Positions 24,961-32,529 of a DNA stretch of 64,000 nucleotides are shown piece after piece. Both the position numbers and the translations under genes were made by a program. Numbering within the stretch: position 1 is the stretch's first letter; every line of letters begins with the position of its first letter. The DNA is from Caldilineales bacterium. GTDB lineage: Bacteria; Chloroflexota; Anaerolineae; Caldilineales; Caldilineaceae. The stretch covers positions 1 to 64,000 of the forward strand of contig JAAXGZ010000064.1 of assembly GCA_012271135.1 (NCBI GenBank), read 5' to 3'. Below the pieces are notes generated by a model that was given only the letters and a program-made list of their open reading frames with translations, searched no databases and had not been told where the DNA came from.

Positions 24961-26361
24961 ATGGCCGCAGCGCAGTCACGTCCCAACCTGATCCTGATGG
25001 GTATCGATTCCATTCGTGCCGACCACATGAGCTGCTACGGCTACGAACGCCTGACAACCCCGCACCTGGACAAGTTCGCGGACAGCGGCGCCTTGTTCGA
25101 GAACACCATCAGCGCCCACATTCCGACCACATCGGCCTACGGTTCAATGTTGACCGGCCGCGACACGTTCGGAACGCAGGTTGTGGCCCTCCGCCACCGG
25201 GGAGGTCTGCGACCGGACATCAAGACGCTGCCGGAAATGCTGCGGGCCATCGGATACGACACCACGTGCGTCGGGTTCACGGGCAACCCCAGCGCGCGCG
25301 GCTTCGACACCTACCTGGACTATGCAGCCTGGGGCAGCTGGGCCACGGGACGCAGTCCCAAGGCCCAGAACCTGAACGAAGTTGCAGTACCCGAGCTGGA
25401 ACGCCTGGCGGCGGGCGACAGGCCCTTCTTTCTCTTCCTCCGGCACATGGATCCGCATGCCCCCTACCTGCCGCCGGCACCGTACGAAACGGCGTTCTAT
25501 CACGGCAACGAACTGGACCCCGGCAACCGCTCCATGGATCCGGTGATGGCGTTCAAGCCCTTCAGGGACTTCTTCCGCATGTGGATGCCGCCCGGCATCA
25601 CCGACAAGGACTACGTGATCGCGCAGTACGACGGCGCGATTGCGTACATGGATGCCTGCATCGCCACGCTGCTCGAATCGATCACCGCCTTGGGGCTGGA
25701 CGACAACACGCTGGTGGTGATCAACGGGGATCATGGCGAGACCCTCTACGACCACGAGTGCTGGTTCGACCACCACGGCATCTACGACAATGTGCTGCAC
25801 GTACCGCTGCTGATGCGGTTCCCCGACCGTGTTCCGGCGGGTCTGCGCCTGGCCGGCTACAACCAGCACAAGGACCTGGTCCCGACCATCCTCGACTATC
25901 TCGGGACGGAGACCGACCAGGATCTGGACGGGCGCAGTCTGCGCAAGCTGGTCGACGGGGAGATGGACACCTTCGAAACCGGTATTTACATCACCGAATG
26001 CACCTGGATGCGCAAGCACGGCTGGCGGACTCCGCAATTCAAGTACATGCATGCCCTGGAGCCGGATTTCCACTTCAAACCCGAAATCGAGCTGTATGAT
26101 TTGAGTGTGGATCCGGGGGAAGACCACAACATCGCACCGGAAAACCCCGAACTGTGCGACTACTTCGAAGGCCGGATCCAGGCCTGGATCGCCAAACGAG
26201 AGGCCGAGACCGGCCTGCCAAACCCAGTGCAGAACCAACCGCACTGGCATGGAAACATGGACATTGAATACTTCAGTTCGTCGCAGGAGGCCTACGACAC
26301 CCTGCACATCGGTGATCCCGTCCAGGGCCAGCGCCTGCAGGCGGGCGAGAGCAACGACTGA
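24961..26361 (+). CDS. Sulfatase-fold (alkaline phosphatase superfamily) hydrolase lacking the FGly Cys/Ser
   Basis: NLILMGIDSIRADHMSCYGYERLTTPHLD; nucleophile region AHIPTTSAYGSMLTG; VINGDHGETLYDHECWFDHHGIYDNVLHVPLLM. Confidence 0.88.
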   Translation: MAAAQSRPNLILMGIDSIRADHMSCYGYERLTTPHLDKFADSGALFENTISAHIPTTSAYGSMLTGRDTFGTQVVALRHRGGLRPDIKTLPEMLRAIGYDTTCVGFTGNPSARGFDTYLDYAAWGSWATGRSPKAQNLNEVAVPELERLAAGDRPFFLFLRHMDPHAPYLPPAPYETAFYHGNELDPGNRSMDPVMAFKPFRDFFRMWMPPGITDKDYVIAQYDGAIAYMDACIATLLESITALGLDDNTLVVINGDHGETLYDHECWFDHHGIYDNVLHVPLLMRFPDRVPAGLRLAGYNQHKDLVPTILDYLGTETDQDLDGRSLRKLVDGEMDTFETGIYITECTWMRKHGWRTPQFKYMHALEPDFHFKPEIELYDLSVDPGEDHNIAPENPELCDYFEGRIQAWIAKREAETGLPNPVQNQPHWHGNMDIEYFSSSQEAYDTLHIGDPVQGQRLQAGESND

Positions 26362-26432
26362 CAGTCCGCTCGGATTGCAGTCGACCGCGAATCGATTCCC
26401 TTGAACCGGACCAGAGGAGGAAATTGGCACCC

Positions 26433-27218
26433 ATGTTGAGCCAACGGCAAATCGATCAGTTCCACCGCGACGGCTTCCTGAACGCCGGCAAGGTCCTGTC
26501 CCAGGAGATCGTCGACCACCTCAACGCGGAGGTGATGCGAACCATTGAGGAAAGCGAAAACCCCGAAGTACGGCAACCCGTCAGTTGCCGCAACCTCAAT
26601 GTGAACGACGAGGAACCGGTGTGGCAAATCGTGGACATCTGGATCAGCTCGGAACCCTTTCGAGAACTGATTTTCCACCCGGACGTGACGCAAGGACTGG
26701 CACAGCTGACCGATGCCACCGAGTTGAGGATCTGGCACGACCAGATCCAATACAAGCCACCGCAGAAGGGCGGCGTCAACATGTGGCACCAGGACGCGCC
26801 GCTGTGGCCCATTATTGCGCCCATGACGGAAGTTACGGCCTGGATTGCGCTGGACGATGCGGGCATCGACAACGGCTGCATGAGCATGGTGCCCGGATCC
26901 CACAAATGGGGCGACAACATCGACTTCCTCCACACATTGGAGAACTATGAGGCGATGCCCTCCACCTTCAATGGTCATGACATTGAAGTCCGGCGTTGTC
27001 CGGTCCGGGCCGGCGAGGTCCACTACCACCACTCCCTGACCTGGCACGGCAGCCATGCCAACACCAGTGGTCGGCCACGGCGCGCCATTGCCCTCCACTA
27101 CATGACCCAGGAAACCACATTCGTGGCCAGCGGCGAGCACATCATGAAGCCCTATGTCACCGTCAACGATGGCGACCTGCTGCAGGGAGAGTATTTCCCG
27201 CGCGTCTATCCCCACTGA
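26433..27218 (+). CDS. Phytanoyl-CoA dioxygenase (PhyH) family Fe(II)/2-oxoglutarate oxygenase
   Basis: QIDQFHRDGFL start; MWHQDAPLWP (HxD); WHGSHANTSGRPRRAI distal His/Arg. AGGAGG ribosome-binding site upstream. Confidence 0.88.
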   Translation: MLSQRQIDQFHRDGFLNAGKVLSQEIVDHLNAEVMRTIEESENPEVRQPVSCRNLNVNDEEPVWQIVDIWISSEPFRELIFHPDVTQGLAQLTDATELRIWHDQIQYKPPQKGGVNMWHQDAPLWPIIAPMTEVTAWIALDDAGIDNGCMSMVPGSHKWGDNIDFLHTLENYEAMPSTFNGHDIEVRRCPVRAGEVHYHHSLTWHGSHANTSGRPRRAIALHYMTQETTFVASGEHIMKPYVTVNDGDLLQGEYFPRVYPH

Positions 27219-27257
27219 CCCGGGCCAACCGGGTCGACAGTCCAAAGGACCTTTCCC

Positions 27258-28244
27258 ATGCTCAACGTTGCCGTGGTCGGTATCGGGAACATCGGCCAAA
27301 ACCATTCCCGCATCTACCAGGCCCACCCGGACACGGAACTCGTGGCAGTGGTGGACGTCGTCGAAGCCGCCGCCACCGCCGGGGGCAAACGGTTCGGCGT
27401 TCCCCACTTTACGTCCATCCCGGACCTGCTCGCGAGCGATGTCCATGTGGATATGGCCAGCGTCTGCACCGCGGGCAAGGAAAACGGTGGCGACCACTAC
27501 GAGCCGACCATGGCCCTGCTTGGGGCCGGGATCCCGGTGCTGGGGGAGAAACCGATTTCCAACGAACTGCCCAAGGCACGGGAGATGGTGGCCCTGGCCA
27601 GGGAACGCAACTTGCGCTACGGCATCAATCTGAACCATCGTTTCACCCCCGCCGCCATTCGGGCCAAGGAGTGGGTGGACACCGGCCGCCTCGGCGAACT
27701 CAACATCATCAACATGACGATGTGGATCAACAACCCCAACGAGACGTCGGAGCACTTCCACATGCGGGCCCTGCATCCGCACTCCCTGGACGTGATGCGC
27801 TACTTCGCCGGCGACGTCGAGAAGGTGCAGGCGTTTTTCAAGAAGGGCAAGGGCCGTGCCATCTGGTCCAACGTGCAGGTCAATTTGCTCTTCCGGAACG
27901 GCGTCATCGGGCACCTGACCGGCAGCTACGACGCGGGAGGCAGCTTTGGCCTGGAGGCCCTCGAGGTTGTGGGCTCCGACGGTCGCTTCGTCCTGCGCGA
28001 AGCCTGCCAGCATCTGGAGTTCTACCCGCGCCACAGCATGGAAACCGAGTCCTACGCCTACCTGGGCGGCATGATGGCATTCCCGGAGACCTTCGACTCC
28101 CGGATCGCACGCTGGATCGAACAGAACAAGGCAGGCGCGGCACCCGAGGACATCGACGCCTCCGGCGAGGACGCCCTGCGGGTCCAGACCATCATCGAAG
28201 GGGCGATCGAGTCCTGGCACACCGGAAAAGTGGTGTCCGTCTAG
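27258..28244 (+). CDS. Gfo/Idh/MocA family oxidoreductase
   Basis: LNVAVVGIGNIGQNHSRIYQAHPDTELVAVVDV; GEKPISNELPKAREMVALA; GINLNHRFTPA. Confidence 0.92.
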   Translation: MLNVAVVGIGNIGQNHSRIYQAHPDTELVAVVDVVEAAATAGGKRFGVPHFTSIPDLLASDVHVDMASVCTAGKENGGDHYEPTMALLGAGIPVLGEKPISNELPKAREMVALARERNLRYGINLNHRFTPAAIRAKEWVDTGRLGELNIINMTMWINNPNETSEHFHMRALHPHSLDVMRYFAGDVEKVQAFFKKGKGRAIWSNVQVNLLFRNGVIGHLTGSYDAGGSFGLEALEVVGSDGRFVLREACQHLEFYPRHSMETESYAYLGGMMAFPETFDSRIARWIEQNKAGAAPEDIDASGEDALRVQTIIEGAIESWHTGKVVSV

Positions 28245-28284
28245 TCCGCTCCGGATCCCCCCATACAACATCAAAGGAGACCCC

Positions 28285-29082
28285 ATGCAGCTTGGCATCA
28301 ATTCGGTCCTTTTCGGAGGTCACGACCTGGAGACCGCCTTCAAGTACGCCAGGCGTGCTGGCTACGACGGCATTGAGCTGGCCGCCATCCCCGCAATGGC
28401 CGACCACTTAGACCTGGATCGATGGCAGGACCAGGCCGAGGACATCCGAAACCTGTCCCGAGCCTACGAATTGCCCCTGCTAGCGATGGAGCAGCCGAGT
28501 CAGGAGCCCGAGGTGATGGAGAAGGCCATGCAGGCCGCCGCCGAGATTGGCGTGCCCATCGTCAACTGCGGACCGGGCGGCGAAGCGGACAACGAGGAGA
28601 GCCTGCAGCAGTCCATCGAGTCTCTGGGACACCTGGCGGACCGGGCGGAGCACTACGGTGTAATCCTCTGCGTTAAGGCCCATGTGGGCAACGCCGTGTA
28701 CAACACGCCCACTACCCTGAAGGTTATGAAGGCCATCTCCAGTCAGGCTTTCGGCATCGACATGGACCCCAGCCACATCCACCGCGCGAACGAGAATCCC
28801 GTCGAAGCCATCGCGGCCGTAATCCAACGGGTAAAGCACGTTCACATCAGGGACTGCCGGGGGCGTCAGGAAGGCCCCGGCGATCCGGAAAACCAAGCCA
28901 ACGGCCGTGGCGACATCGATCTTCTGGGGTACATTCGCGTACTGCACGAACACGGCTACGACGGCCCCTTGAACCTGGAGGTGATTGGCGCCAGGGAGTA
29001 TGGCATTGCCGAATGCTGCGTGATTGCCGCAGAGGCCAAGGGCCACATGCAAGCCTGCCTGCAGGCTTGCGGAGCCCGTTGA
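28285..29082 (+). CDS. Sugar phosphate isomerase/epimerase (AP endonuclease 2/TIM-barrel)
   Basis: GINSVLFGGHDLETAFKYARRAGYDGIELAA; FGIDMDPSHIHRANENPVEAI; HVHIRDCRG; GPLNLEVIG. Confidence 0.9.
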   Translation: MQLGINSVLFGGHDLETAFKYARRAGYDGIELAAIPAMADHLDLDRWQDQAEDIRNLSRAYELPLLAMEQPSQEPEVMEKAMQAAAEIGVPIVNCGPGGEADNEESLQQSIESLGHLADRAEHYGVILCVKAHVGNAVYNTPTTLKVMKAISSQAFGIDMDPSHIHRANENPVEAIAAVIQRVKHVHIRDCRGRQEGPGDPENQANGRGDIDLLGYIRVLHEHGYDGPLNLEVIGAREYGIAECCVIAAEAKGHMQACLQACGAR

Positions 29083-29272: not shown

Positions 29273-31438
29273 ATGTCTGTGCAGGCTGAAGTCCTGCAAA
29301 CCATATCGAGACCGGTTGAGGCGTCCCTCCAGACCCTGTTGCGGCCTGTTCGATTTTTTAGGGATTACAACCCAGACGACTTTCCCGCCGATCTGGTGGC
29401 GGGCATTACGACCGGCATCATCCTGATCCCGCAGTCGATTGCCTACGCCCTGATTGCCGGACTGCCGCCCGAAGTCGGCCTTTACACGGCGATCGTTGCC
29501 CCGATCGCCGCCGCATTGTGGGGTTCCAGCAATCACCTCCACACGGGTCCGACCAACGCAGAGTCGTTGCTGGTCCTCATGATTGTGAGTTCCGTCGCGA
29601 CCAGCAGCGATCCGATCGAGTTCCTCCTGATCGCGGGACTCCTCACCGTGCTCATCGGTGTCATGCGGCTGGCCTTGGGGTTGTTGCGGGCCGGATTCAT
29701 CATTAATTTCATTTCCGACGCGGTCATGGTCGGCTTTACGGCTGGTGCCGGCCTGCTGATCATCACGTTCCAACTAAGCGGGTTGCTGGGACTGGACGTG
29801 GAACGGACGTTCACGTTCATCGATGCCGCGCGCACCCTCGGGCAGACGTGGGAGGGCCTGCACTTCGTCAGCCTGGCACTGGGTTTGGGCACGGTAATCC
29901 TGATTTTCGCGCTACCGCAGCTCCATCCTCGGTTGCCGTCGCTCTTCCTGTCCGTGTTCCTTATGTCGGTGCTGGTGGCCTCGTTCGGCCTGGCTCACCG
30001 CGGTGTAAGCGTGATTGCGCCAGTGCCGGCCGTTCTGCCCCCTGTCGCCAATCTGCCCCTGACGGATTTCCAGTTGGTCGCCAAGTTGATCCCGGGCGCC
30101 TCGGCCATTGCCCTGATCGGCTTGATCGAGGCCCTCACGATTGCCCGTTCGATCGCGAGCCAGACCGGCCAGCACCTGGACAACAACCAAGAAATCGTCG
30201 GGCAGGGAGTTGCCAACATTCTCGTCGGATTCCTGTCCGGATATTGCGCATCCGGCTCCTTCACCCGCAGCAGGGTGAATCTCAACGCCGGCGGAAAAAC
30301 CCCCATGACGACCCTTTTGTCCGGCGTATTTGTACTGGTGGCCGTGCTTACCCTTGGTTGGGCCATCCGCTACCTGGCCAAACCGGTGCTGGCAGGGTTC
30401 GTGATTGCCACCGCCATCACCCTCATCAACCTGCCCCACGCTCTTCAGATCCTGCGTACGAGCAAGTCGGAAACCTTCATCATGCTCGTTACCTGGGGTT
30501 CGGTGTTCGTCTTCTCCCTGGTCGAAGCAGTGGCCATCGGCATCACCGCCTCGCTGCTCGTGTACGTCTACAAGACCAGCCGACCCCGCGTGATCCCACT
30601 GGTCCCGGACGCGAAGTTCAAGCACCTCCGCGAACGGAACCCCAACAAGGACCCGGTCTGTCCCCAACTGGACATCATCGCCATTGAAGGCGATTTGTAC
30701 TTCGGGGCTGCGAACCATGTGGAGTACCTGCTGAGAAATCGGCTGGCGGATGCCGGACGCCAGTACTACGTTCTGCTGAACCTGCAGAACATGGTGAGGG
30801 TCGATATCAGCGGTGTCCACATGCTGGAGAATTATGTAAATGAAATCAGGGGCCAGGGAGGGGATGTCTATTTCTTCAAGATGACGGACATCGCCCGGCG
30901 CCTGTTCACCTCTTCGGGTTTCATGGACCTGGTCGGCCCGGATCATTTCCTGCACGACGAAAACGCCATCGACTACCTGTTCCATCGTGTGCTGAACCCC
31001 AAGGTGTGCATATACGACTGCCCCCTGCGTGTGTTCCGCGAATGTCAGAACCTACCCAAAATCTCCATCCCCTTCCAGGATAAGGTCCAAGGCATGACTT
31101 CGCTGCCGTATGTACCCCTGATCCACGTGGAGGAGTTGGAGGGCCGATGCACGCGGCGGCCCCTGGACTTCGAACTCATTGACGTGCGGGAGGCGATGGA
31201 GTGGGACCGCGGCCACATTCAGGTGGCGAGGCACATGGCCTACTCGACCTTCAGCGTGGAGGACCTGGATGTGACGCCCGACCGCGAGGTGGTGGTGATT
31301 TCCCGTTCCACCCGTCGCTCGCGCATCATCGCCTACGTGTTGATGGAGTCCGGTTTCAGCAATGTCAAGGTGGTCGAAGGGGGCATGTCCGCCTGGATCG
31401 ACGCCTCCTTCATGACCGCCATAAGCGTGTACACATGA
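29273..31438 (+). CDS. SulP-family anion transporter with STAS and C-terminal rhodanese-like domains
   Basis: PADLVAGITTGIILIPQSIAYALIAGLPPEVGLYTA (SulP); VRVDISGVHMLENYV (STAS); FELIDVREAMEWDRGHIQVARHMAYS...VVVISRSTRRSRIIAYVLMESGFSNVKVVEGGMSAW (rhodanese). Confidence 0.92.
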   Translation: MSVQAEVLQTISRPVEASLQTLLRPVRFFRDYNPDDFPADLVAGITTGIILIPQSIAYALIAGLPPEVGLYTAIVAPIAAALWGSSNHLHTGPTNAESLLVLMIVSSVATSSDPIEFLLIAGLLTVLIGVMRLALGLLRAGFIINFISDAVMVGFTAGAGLLIITFQLSGLLGLDVERTFTFIDAARTLGQTWEGLHFVSLALGLGTVILIFALPQLHPRLPSLFLSVFLMSVLVASFGLAHRGVSVIAPVPAVLPPVANLPLTDFQLVAKLIPGASAIALIGLIEALTIARSIASQTGQHLDNNQEIVGQGVANILVGFLSGYCASGSFTRSRVNLNAGGKTPMTTLLSGVFVLVAVLTLGWAIRYLAKPVLAGFVIATAITLINLPHALQILRTSKSETFIMLVTWGSVFVFSLVEAVAIGITASLLVYVYKTSRPRVIPLVPDAKFKHLRERNPNKDPVCPQLDIIAIEGDLYFGAANHVEYLLRNRLADAGRQYYVLLNLQNMVRVDISGVHMLENYVNEIRGQGGDVYFFKMTDIARRLFTSSGFMDLVGPDHFLHDENAIDYLFHRVLNPKVCIYDCPLRVFRECQNLPKISIPFQDKVQGMTSLPYVPLIHVEELEGRCTRRPLDFELIDVREAMEWDRGHIQVARHMAYSTFSVEDLDVTPDREVVVISRSTRRSRIIAYVLMESGFSNVKVVEGGMSAWIDASFMTAISVYT

Positions 31439-32529
31439 CGATTCACAACGGTCGTCCGGCATGGCCAAACCATGAGATACCGGAACATCCGGAACCCTAC
31501 CCCTACGTCTTCATGGGATTCGAGCTGGCGCGGGCTACGGAAGCCGCAGCGCTGGCCGCAGGCCGGTATGTCGGTTTGGGGCTGCCCCAACAGGCGGACG
31601 AAGAGGCCTCTACAAGCCTGCTCAAAGAACTTGGCTGGCTACCGTGCCAGGGGTATGTTATCGGCCACGGGCACCGTGAGCGGGAGGTCCAGAATCCGGA
31701 CAATCCGGCATTGTGGGTTGGAACGGGTTCCGGGCCGGAGATGGACGTGGTCTACGCCGCGGTCGACGGCACAAACCTTCTGGCACAGGGCAGACCCGGT
31801 GCCGTCTCCGTGATTTGCGCCACGCCCCGGGACCAGATGTGGCTGCCCCGCTCGGCCCTCAACATGCAGAAAATCGTGGTGGATCGCAGGGTGGCGAAGG
31901 CCTTGGTACCGGAGTGTCTGGACGCGCCGCCCGGATGGGTCCTGGCCTTGGTGGCACGCGAACTGGACAAGGACATCAGCGATTTGGTGGTCTGGGTACT
32001 CGACAGACCCCGCCACACCAACCTGGTATCCCAGATCCGTCTGGCGGGGGCCAGAGCCCAAATCCGCATTGACGGCGACATCGCCGGTGCCTTGCTGGCG
32101 GGCAATCCGGACAGCCGGGTGGATGTGCTCATGGGCGTGGGCGGGGCGGTGGAGGGCCTCTTGGCAGCCGCCGGCGTCAAGGCCATGGGCGGGGCCATGG
32201 TAACCCGGCTGGCTCCGCGCGACGAGGAAGAGCGCAGGATGGTCCTGGACGAGGGACACGACCTGCAGACCATCCAGGCGCTTGACGACCTGGTCAAGAC
32301 CAACGACATCTACTTCGCGGCCACCGGAATTACCGACGGCGAACTGATACGCGGTGTGACCTTTACGGGCCGGCTCGCGAAAACCCACTCCCTGATCCTG
32401 GGCGAAGGCGGTGTCAAGCGATTTGTGCAGTCCGAACACCCCATGCGCGGCGGTCGTTCGATTGCCATGCAGGACAGTCACACCGTGCGCGCAGCCGATC
32501 CGGAAGCCGTCAGCGTCCCGCGATTGTGA
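31435..32529 (+). CDS. Divergent GlpX-like (class II fructose-1,6-bisphosphatase fold) protein
   Basis: ARATEAAALAAGRYVG, VDGTNLLAQGRPGAVSVI, PRSALNMQKIVV, GDIAGALLAGNPDSRVDVLMGVGGAVEGLLAAAGVKAMGG, NDIYFAATGITDGELIRGV align over full length with GlpX. Confidence 0.85.
   Translation: MTIHNGRPAWPNHEIPEHPEPYPYVFMGFELARATEAAALAAGRYVGLGLPQQADEEASTSLLKELGWLPCQGYVIGHGHREREVQNPDNPALWVGTGSGPEMDVVYAAVDGTNLLAQGRPGAVSVICATPRDQMWLPRSALNMQKIVVDRRVAKALVPECLDAPPGWVLALVARELDKDISDLVVWVLDRPRHTNLVSQIRLAGARAQIRIDGDIAGALLAGNPDSRVDVLMGVGGAVEGLLAAAGVKAMGGAMVTRLAPRDEEERRMVLDEGHDLQTIQALDDLVKTNDIYFAATGITDGELIRGVTFTGRLAKTHSLILGEGGVKRFVQSEHPMRGGRSIAMQDSHTVRAADPEAVSVPRL

Follow-up and report, generated by a model that had tools for sequence, protein, structure and literature searches.

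The window, a 64,000-nt stretch of a Caldilineales bacterium contig, encodes a paralogue of the class II FBPase GlpX, here called GlpX2, whose gene directly follows that of a SulP-STAS-rhodanese anion transporter. In two classes of the Chloroflexota, GlpX2 proteins form a single clade, mostly have this transporter gene just upstream, and have lost catalytic residues recurrently while the sugar-phosphate pocket stayed nearly frozen. We give about an even chance to the reading that GlpX2, derived from GlpX, binds a sugar phosphate and regulates the SulP transporter as its partner. The first-pass annotation of this DNA had described a GlpX-fold protein, perhaps repurposed, with metal and catalytic residues lost, coupled to the SulP-rhodanese gene, and both the residue map and the pairing bear this out; among the roles that it offered, a sensor for the transporter best fits a pocket that is kept while the catalytic residues drift.

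The GlpX2 gene and its active-site residues

GlpX2 matches PF03320 over nearly its full length (profile positions 4-307 of 307, E 8e-87), confirming the end-to-end class II FBPase homology first annotated, and this is its sole Pfam match. Its best PDB relatives are the class II FBPases of M. tuberculosis (6ayy), Francisella (F. tularensis, 7js3) and E. coli, with which it has in common the fold, by full-length homology, the 6-phosphate pocket and the DGD motif. The score against the NCBIfam FBPase equivalog TIGR00330 lies below the cut-off (211.3 versus 259.3 bits). The GlpX2 ATG at 31435 overlaps the SulP stop TGA at 31436-31438, in the position and frame that had been claimed for it (Table 1).

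Table 1. Coordinates of the transporter and GlpX2 genes and of motifs and residues within them; positions are those of the window
Feature	Position	Strand	Remark
SulP-STAS-rhodanese transporter, 721 aa	29273..31438	+	only SulP in window genome
GPTNAES motif, SulP membrane domain	29546..29566	+	GP[T/A/S]N in SulP genes of the module with readable motif
CPQL motif, start of STAS region	30659..30670	+	Cys invariant in 13 aligned homologues
Three-Cys motif VCIYDCPLRVFREC (C-x3-C-x7-C), STAS-rhodanese linker	31004..31045	+	61/62 linked SulP sequences
Rhodanese active loop VVVISRSTRRS	31289..31321	+	catalytic Cys is Ser 677; Cys in 48/62 relatives
ATGA overlap, SulP stop and GlpX2 start	31435..31438	+	kept in three congeners
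GlpX paralogue (GlpX2), 364 aa	31435..32529	+	without equivalents of E57, D85, Y119, K29, E59, D61
H78-G79-H80 replacing the E57/E59 loop	31666..31674	+	IGEGE in FBPase, IGEE in other GlpX2
A108 replacing metal ligand D85	31756..31758	+	
T113, equivalent of nucleophile T90, kept	31771..31773	+	Ala in congener G001/L020
N143 replacing Y119 (6-phosphate contact)	31861..31863	+	
R191-P-R193, 6-phosphate pocket, kept	32005..32013	+	R193 = R166
D213-G-D215, furanose-hydroxyl contact, kept	32071..32079	+	= D186/D188
E240, equivalent of metal ligand E213, kept	32152..32154	+	

Residue equivalents were taken from a multiple alignment with E. coli GlpX, whose numbering is used below. In that enzyme Ca-1 is held by D85 and E213 and Ca-2 by D33 and E57, while an RxR motif holds the 6-phosphate and the DGD motif contacts the furanose hydroxyls (PMC5892879, PMC10289334). 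The window GlpX2 keeps D33 (as D55) and E213 (as E240), the Asp of ADEEA and the Glu of GGAxEG that had been read as retained, and has lost E57 and D85, so that each metal site is short of one ligand and most of the substrate site remains. The replacement of the metal Asp within DIAVDPxEGT was correctly noted (D85 is A108), but the accompanying change of E88 to D111 is ordinary, since Asp stands there in 9 of 11 canonical rows. E57 is replaced by G79 without a gap, or by H78 with a one-residue shift, and E59 by R81 or, with the same shift, H80; thus both carboxylates are gone, as annotated, while their replacement by His depends on the alignment. The equivalent of D61 is lost as well, the Lys of GRGDKN is absent as first read (K29 is P51), and the K164 position remains basic (R191). 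Judged from these residues, FBPase function has very likely been lost in the window GlpX2.

The closest public contigs belong to the Caldilineaceae MAGs SB0661_bin_34, IRC1_bin_30 and bin34, whose GlpX2 proteins are 96-99% identical to that of the window and whose gene neighborhoods and ATGA overlaps are the same. Among these congeners dN/dS is 0.07-0.13 for GlpX2, like that of the neighboring ValS (valyl-tRNA synthetase), and 0.06-0.10 for the SulP gene; GlpX2 of this genus is under strong purifying selection. The catalytic-site substitutions are fixed across four species-level genomes of the genus, which together with the low dN/dS argues that they are not due to chance. An AlphaFold2 model of GlpX2 built from four near-identical sequences (pLDDT 30, pTM 0.19) was not used.

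A clade paired with SulP-STAS-rhodanese genes

A search of 396 Anaerolineae genomes found GlpX2-type homologues that are 41-57% identical to the window protein, versus 36-45% for canonical GlpX, and that often share a genome with a canonical copy. A 400-genome search of the phylum added further families outside Anaerolineae, chiefly two, so that the clade is distributed over Anaerolineae and Chloroflexia; the genomes outside Anaerolineae presumably include those of Chloroflexus aurantiacus J-10-fl, C. aggregans and Roseiflexus RS-1. From 91 paralogues, the 82 that were long enough entered a tree whose alignment left out the catalytic columns, and all of these, the window protein among them, form one clade apart from canonical GlpX (SH-aLRT 100). 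Locus L161 was assigned to the canonical-like set and is not counted among the 91.

Clustering of the ORFs surrounding 76 GlpX2 loci gave the SulP-STAS-rhodanese gene as the sole recurrent neighbor, directly upstream on the same strand at 63 loci; antisense frames of the pair aside, the next families occur at no more than 9 loci each. The conserved domain of GlpX2 begins at most about 80 nt from the SulP stop in 50 of 59 cases, gene starts in the relatives being approximate rather than rigorously called. Canonical GlpX has no adjoining SulP-rhodanese gene at any of nine Chloroflexota loci, within flanks of only about 1.5 kb, nor in E. coli. Both genes are present in 75 of the 396 Anaerolineae genomes, GlpX2 alone in 2, SulP-rhodanese alone in 13 and neither in 306 (Fisher p 2e-64, uncorrected for kinship, which inflates the statistic); the exceptional genomes include several incomplete MAGs. 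For four genomes the paralogue count relied on adjacency (G126, G147, G393 and G102, in the last of which the GlpX2 motif was also read directly, L160), and for one on a partial match (G218). The pair is split between contigs or lies far apart in at least seven genomes, e.g. about 130 kb apart in G066. We discarded an apparent SulP-GlpX2 fusion (G015), whose frame crosses a run of exactly 100 N at a gap in the assembly. The two genes are very probably functionally coupled.

The first-pass annotation had proposed looking for the SulP-rhodanese/GlpX-like pair in other genomes, and it proved to be phylum-wide in Chloroflexota; this range goes beyond what had been noted, as do N143 in place of Y119 and the Ser in place of the rhodanese Cys. 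Outside the Chloroflexota the search covered plasmids, where the best GlpX matches were no more than 41% identical and mostly annotated as glpX, and no plasmid carried most of the SulP C-terminal architecture. No paper describing the pair was found in the literature searched, and a transcriptome paper on Chloroflexus aggregans does not discuss it.

The upstream protein has both the Sulfate_transp and STAS domains (Pfam), and the PDB holds prestin, SULTR4.1, SLC26Dg and BicA as its relatives. Its membrane domain and STAS are homologous to those of SulP/SLC26 transporters (SLC26Dg, 5da0; BicA, 6ki1; plant SULTR4.1, 7lhv), from which it differs in the added three-Cys linker motif, rhodanese domain and GlpX-like partner gene. 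The linker consensus among the linked SulP proteins is CIYECxxRxFxECQNLPK, and its three Cys together with the invariant Cys of CPQ are a possible metal or Fe-S site. An active rhodanese has Cys in a CRxGxRS loop, where the window protein has Ser 677, and with this change both accessory enzymes, rhodanese and GlpX2, appear to have been disarmed in the window genus. A few other SulP relatives have Gly, Ala or Asp at the rhodanese catalytic position. Two SulP-rhodanese genes in tandem precede GlpX2 in several genomes of Chloroflexus type and in one from Anaerolineae (L144, L145, L159, L064).

Pocket conservation, catalytic drift and possible functions

In the 91 paralogues the pocket is largely kept and catalytic residues are often lost. 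R166 is present in all 91, position 164 is Lys or Arg in all, and D188 and Y119 are kept in 89 and 87, respectively; D186 has become Glu in 32. The T90 position holds Thr in 48, Arg in 32, Cys in 3, Leu in 3, Ala in 2, Ser in 2 and Val in 1, the D33 position holds Asp in 53, His in 27, Asn in 4 and Glu in 3, and E213 is replaced by Gln in 19. K29 is Lys in one member only, and nearly all members have lost E59 and D61. At least 7 changes at T90 and at least 8 at D33 are needed on the tree. Among the columns that are invariant in canonical GlpX, D33, T90 and D61 belong within GlpX2 to the most variable fifth, and R166 and D188 to the least variable third. This pattern would be expected if ligand binding were selected and hydrolysis were not.

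The T84A mutant of M. tuberculosis GlpX and the T89A mutant of Francisella GlpX are inactive (PMC5892879, PMC10289334), so that GlpX2 members with Arg, Cys, Leu, Val or Ala at position 90 are very probably dead FBPases. All six metal and nucleophile residues are kept in about 17 of the 91, a figure taken from a 92-row count that included the canonical-like L161, and these members may be active. The replacements are patterned, with His33, Thr90 and Gln213 combined in one subclade and Arg90 in another. The His-Gly-His of the window is confined to its genus, and other members show different changes (T90R, D33H, E213Q); the His-based metal site once suggested thus finds no support as a general feature.

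We favor the reading in which GlpX2, produced together with the SulP-STAS-3Cys-rhodanese anion transporter, would serve that transporter and not gluconeogenesis. Its old FBPase pocket would bind a fructose-type sugar phosphate, and the protein may work in the cytoplasm, as sensor or as regulatory subunit, at the end of SulP that carries STAS and rhodanese. If sugar phosphate is sensed on the transporter, anion uptake would follow the carbon state of the cell, which is the presumed direction of control. Ligand binding is less certain in the window genus, where Y119 is also lost, and the frequent Glu at D186 means that the ligand of GlpX2 may not be fructose. More tentatively, a sugar-phosphate-sensing former FBPase may gate SulP-STAS-rhodanese across the Chloroflexota, cultured phototrophs (Chloroflexus, Roseiflexus) included, after many independent losses of catalysis.

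In the main rival reading GlpX2 would have remained an enzyme, its substrate or metal site altered (e.g. for PAP/PAPS or for a phosphate ester that is larger or contains sulfur), and would act on a compound tied to the imported anion. The members with all six residues and the patterning of the replacements suit it, and the rhodanese and Cys motif of the upstream protein point to sulfur chemistry, but most members have a replacement at T90 or D33, the window genus is without two metal ligands and its congener G001 without T90 too, and there is no second recurrent neighbor family to mark a pathway. The CysQ/inositol-monophosphatase family (PF00459) belongs, like GlpX, to the wider sugar-phosphatase superfamily, and the window GlpX2 has no match to it. 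For the PAP or inositol-phosphatase link raised in the first-pass annotation we found nothing beyond the SulP neighbor, and a PF00459 protein encoded elsewhere in the window genome could fill such roles. On balance we consider an altered enzyme unlikely, if still worth weighing. A role of GlpX2 confined to the structure or assembly of SulP, the frozen pocket serving fold stability alone, seems distinctly improbable. Tight pairing and recurrent catalytic loss require no ligand, and GlpX proteins form stable 222 tetramers (PMC5892879); yet the pocket positions that vary least hold charged residues in contact with the substrate (R164, R166, D188) and do not belong to the core, and a separate set of canonical-invariant columns drifts freely.

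Another FBPase, either a further GlpX or one of class I, is encoded in 58 of 77 GlpX2 genomes. Among the remaining 19, all 18 examined have at least one catalytic residue of GlpX2 lost or altered; in one of these the change is T90S, a substitution that leaves characterized FBPases partly active. The window genome is one of the 19, and the separate canonical FBPase sought at the suggestion of the first-pass annotation is absent from it (no second PF03320 protein and no PF00316 protein). Its sole PFK, L163 (G000:C114:36400-37380), bears the motifs GGDD and PKTMDND, which we take to be the signature of the reversible PPi-dependent type, and as no FBPase turned up, this PFK probably carries gluconeogenesis. 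An ordinary class II FBPase standing beside a transporter by chance would agree with the full-length PF03320 match and with GlpX2 being the only GlpX of a genome where class I FBPase was not found, but the sub-cut-off score, the loss of E57, D85, K29 and Y119, the altered residues in those 18 genomes and the PPi-type PFK make it very improbable. A decaying pseudogene, to which the lost catalytic residues might point, has next to no chance of being right, because the frame is open in all four congeners, the dN/dS values contradict decay and the pair persists in two classes, Anaerolineae and Chloroflexia.

Related systems and neighboring genes

GlpX2 differs from the class II FBPases in its separate clade, its SulP pairing, the replacement of metal or nucleophile residues in most members and the nearly universal loss of K29 and the E59/D61 loop. 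Transporters encoded next to a metabolite-sensing cytoplasmic partner include AmtB-GlnK and SbtA-SbtB. The logic proposed here would be alike, although the PII fold is unrelated and the sensor would be a disarmed sugar-bisphosphatase. Should GlpX2 be a sugar-phosphate sensor for SulP, it would link central carbon state to anion uptake, a link for which we found no description in the literature searched. GlpX genes are annotated automatically as FBPase, and the whole GlpX2 clade would be misnamed, affecting metabolic models of Chloroflexota. The clade would also supply, for an enzyme of well-known structure, a range of natural variants that keep the pocket and have lost catalysis.

The SulP gene is preceded on its strand by a set of genes conserved in the genus, which encode sulfatase-like, PhyH, Gfo/Idh/MocA and TIM-barrel isomerase proteins (24961-29082). 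A general functional link of this cluster to GlpX2 and SulP was rejected because it is genus-specific, being absent from the other families. In its sulfatase-family protein (PF00884; 24961-26361, + strand) the C/S-x-P-x-R motif reads T-T-S-A-Y (HIPTTSAYGSMLTG); without a formylglycine Cys, it is perhaps a phosphoesterase or a dead relative. Another Caldilineaceae genome has a broken GlpX-like gene, with split frames and an internal TGA (G026:C47:707-1621; L016, L018, L019).
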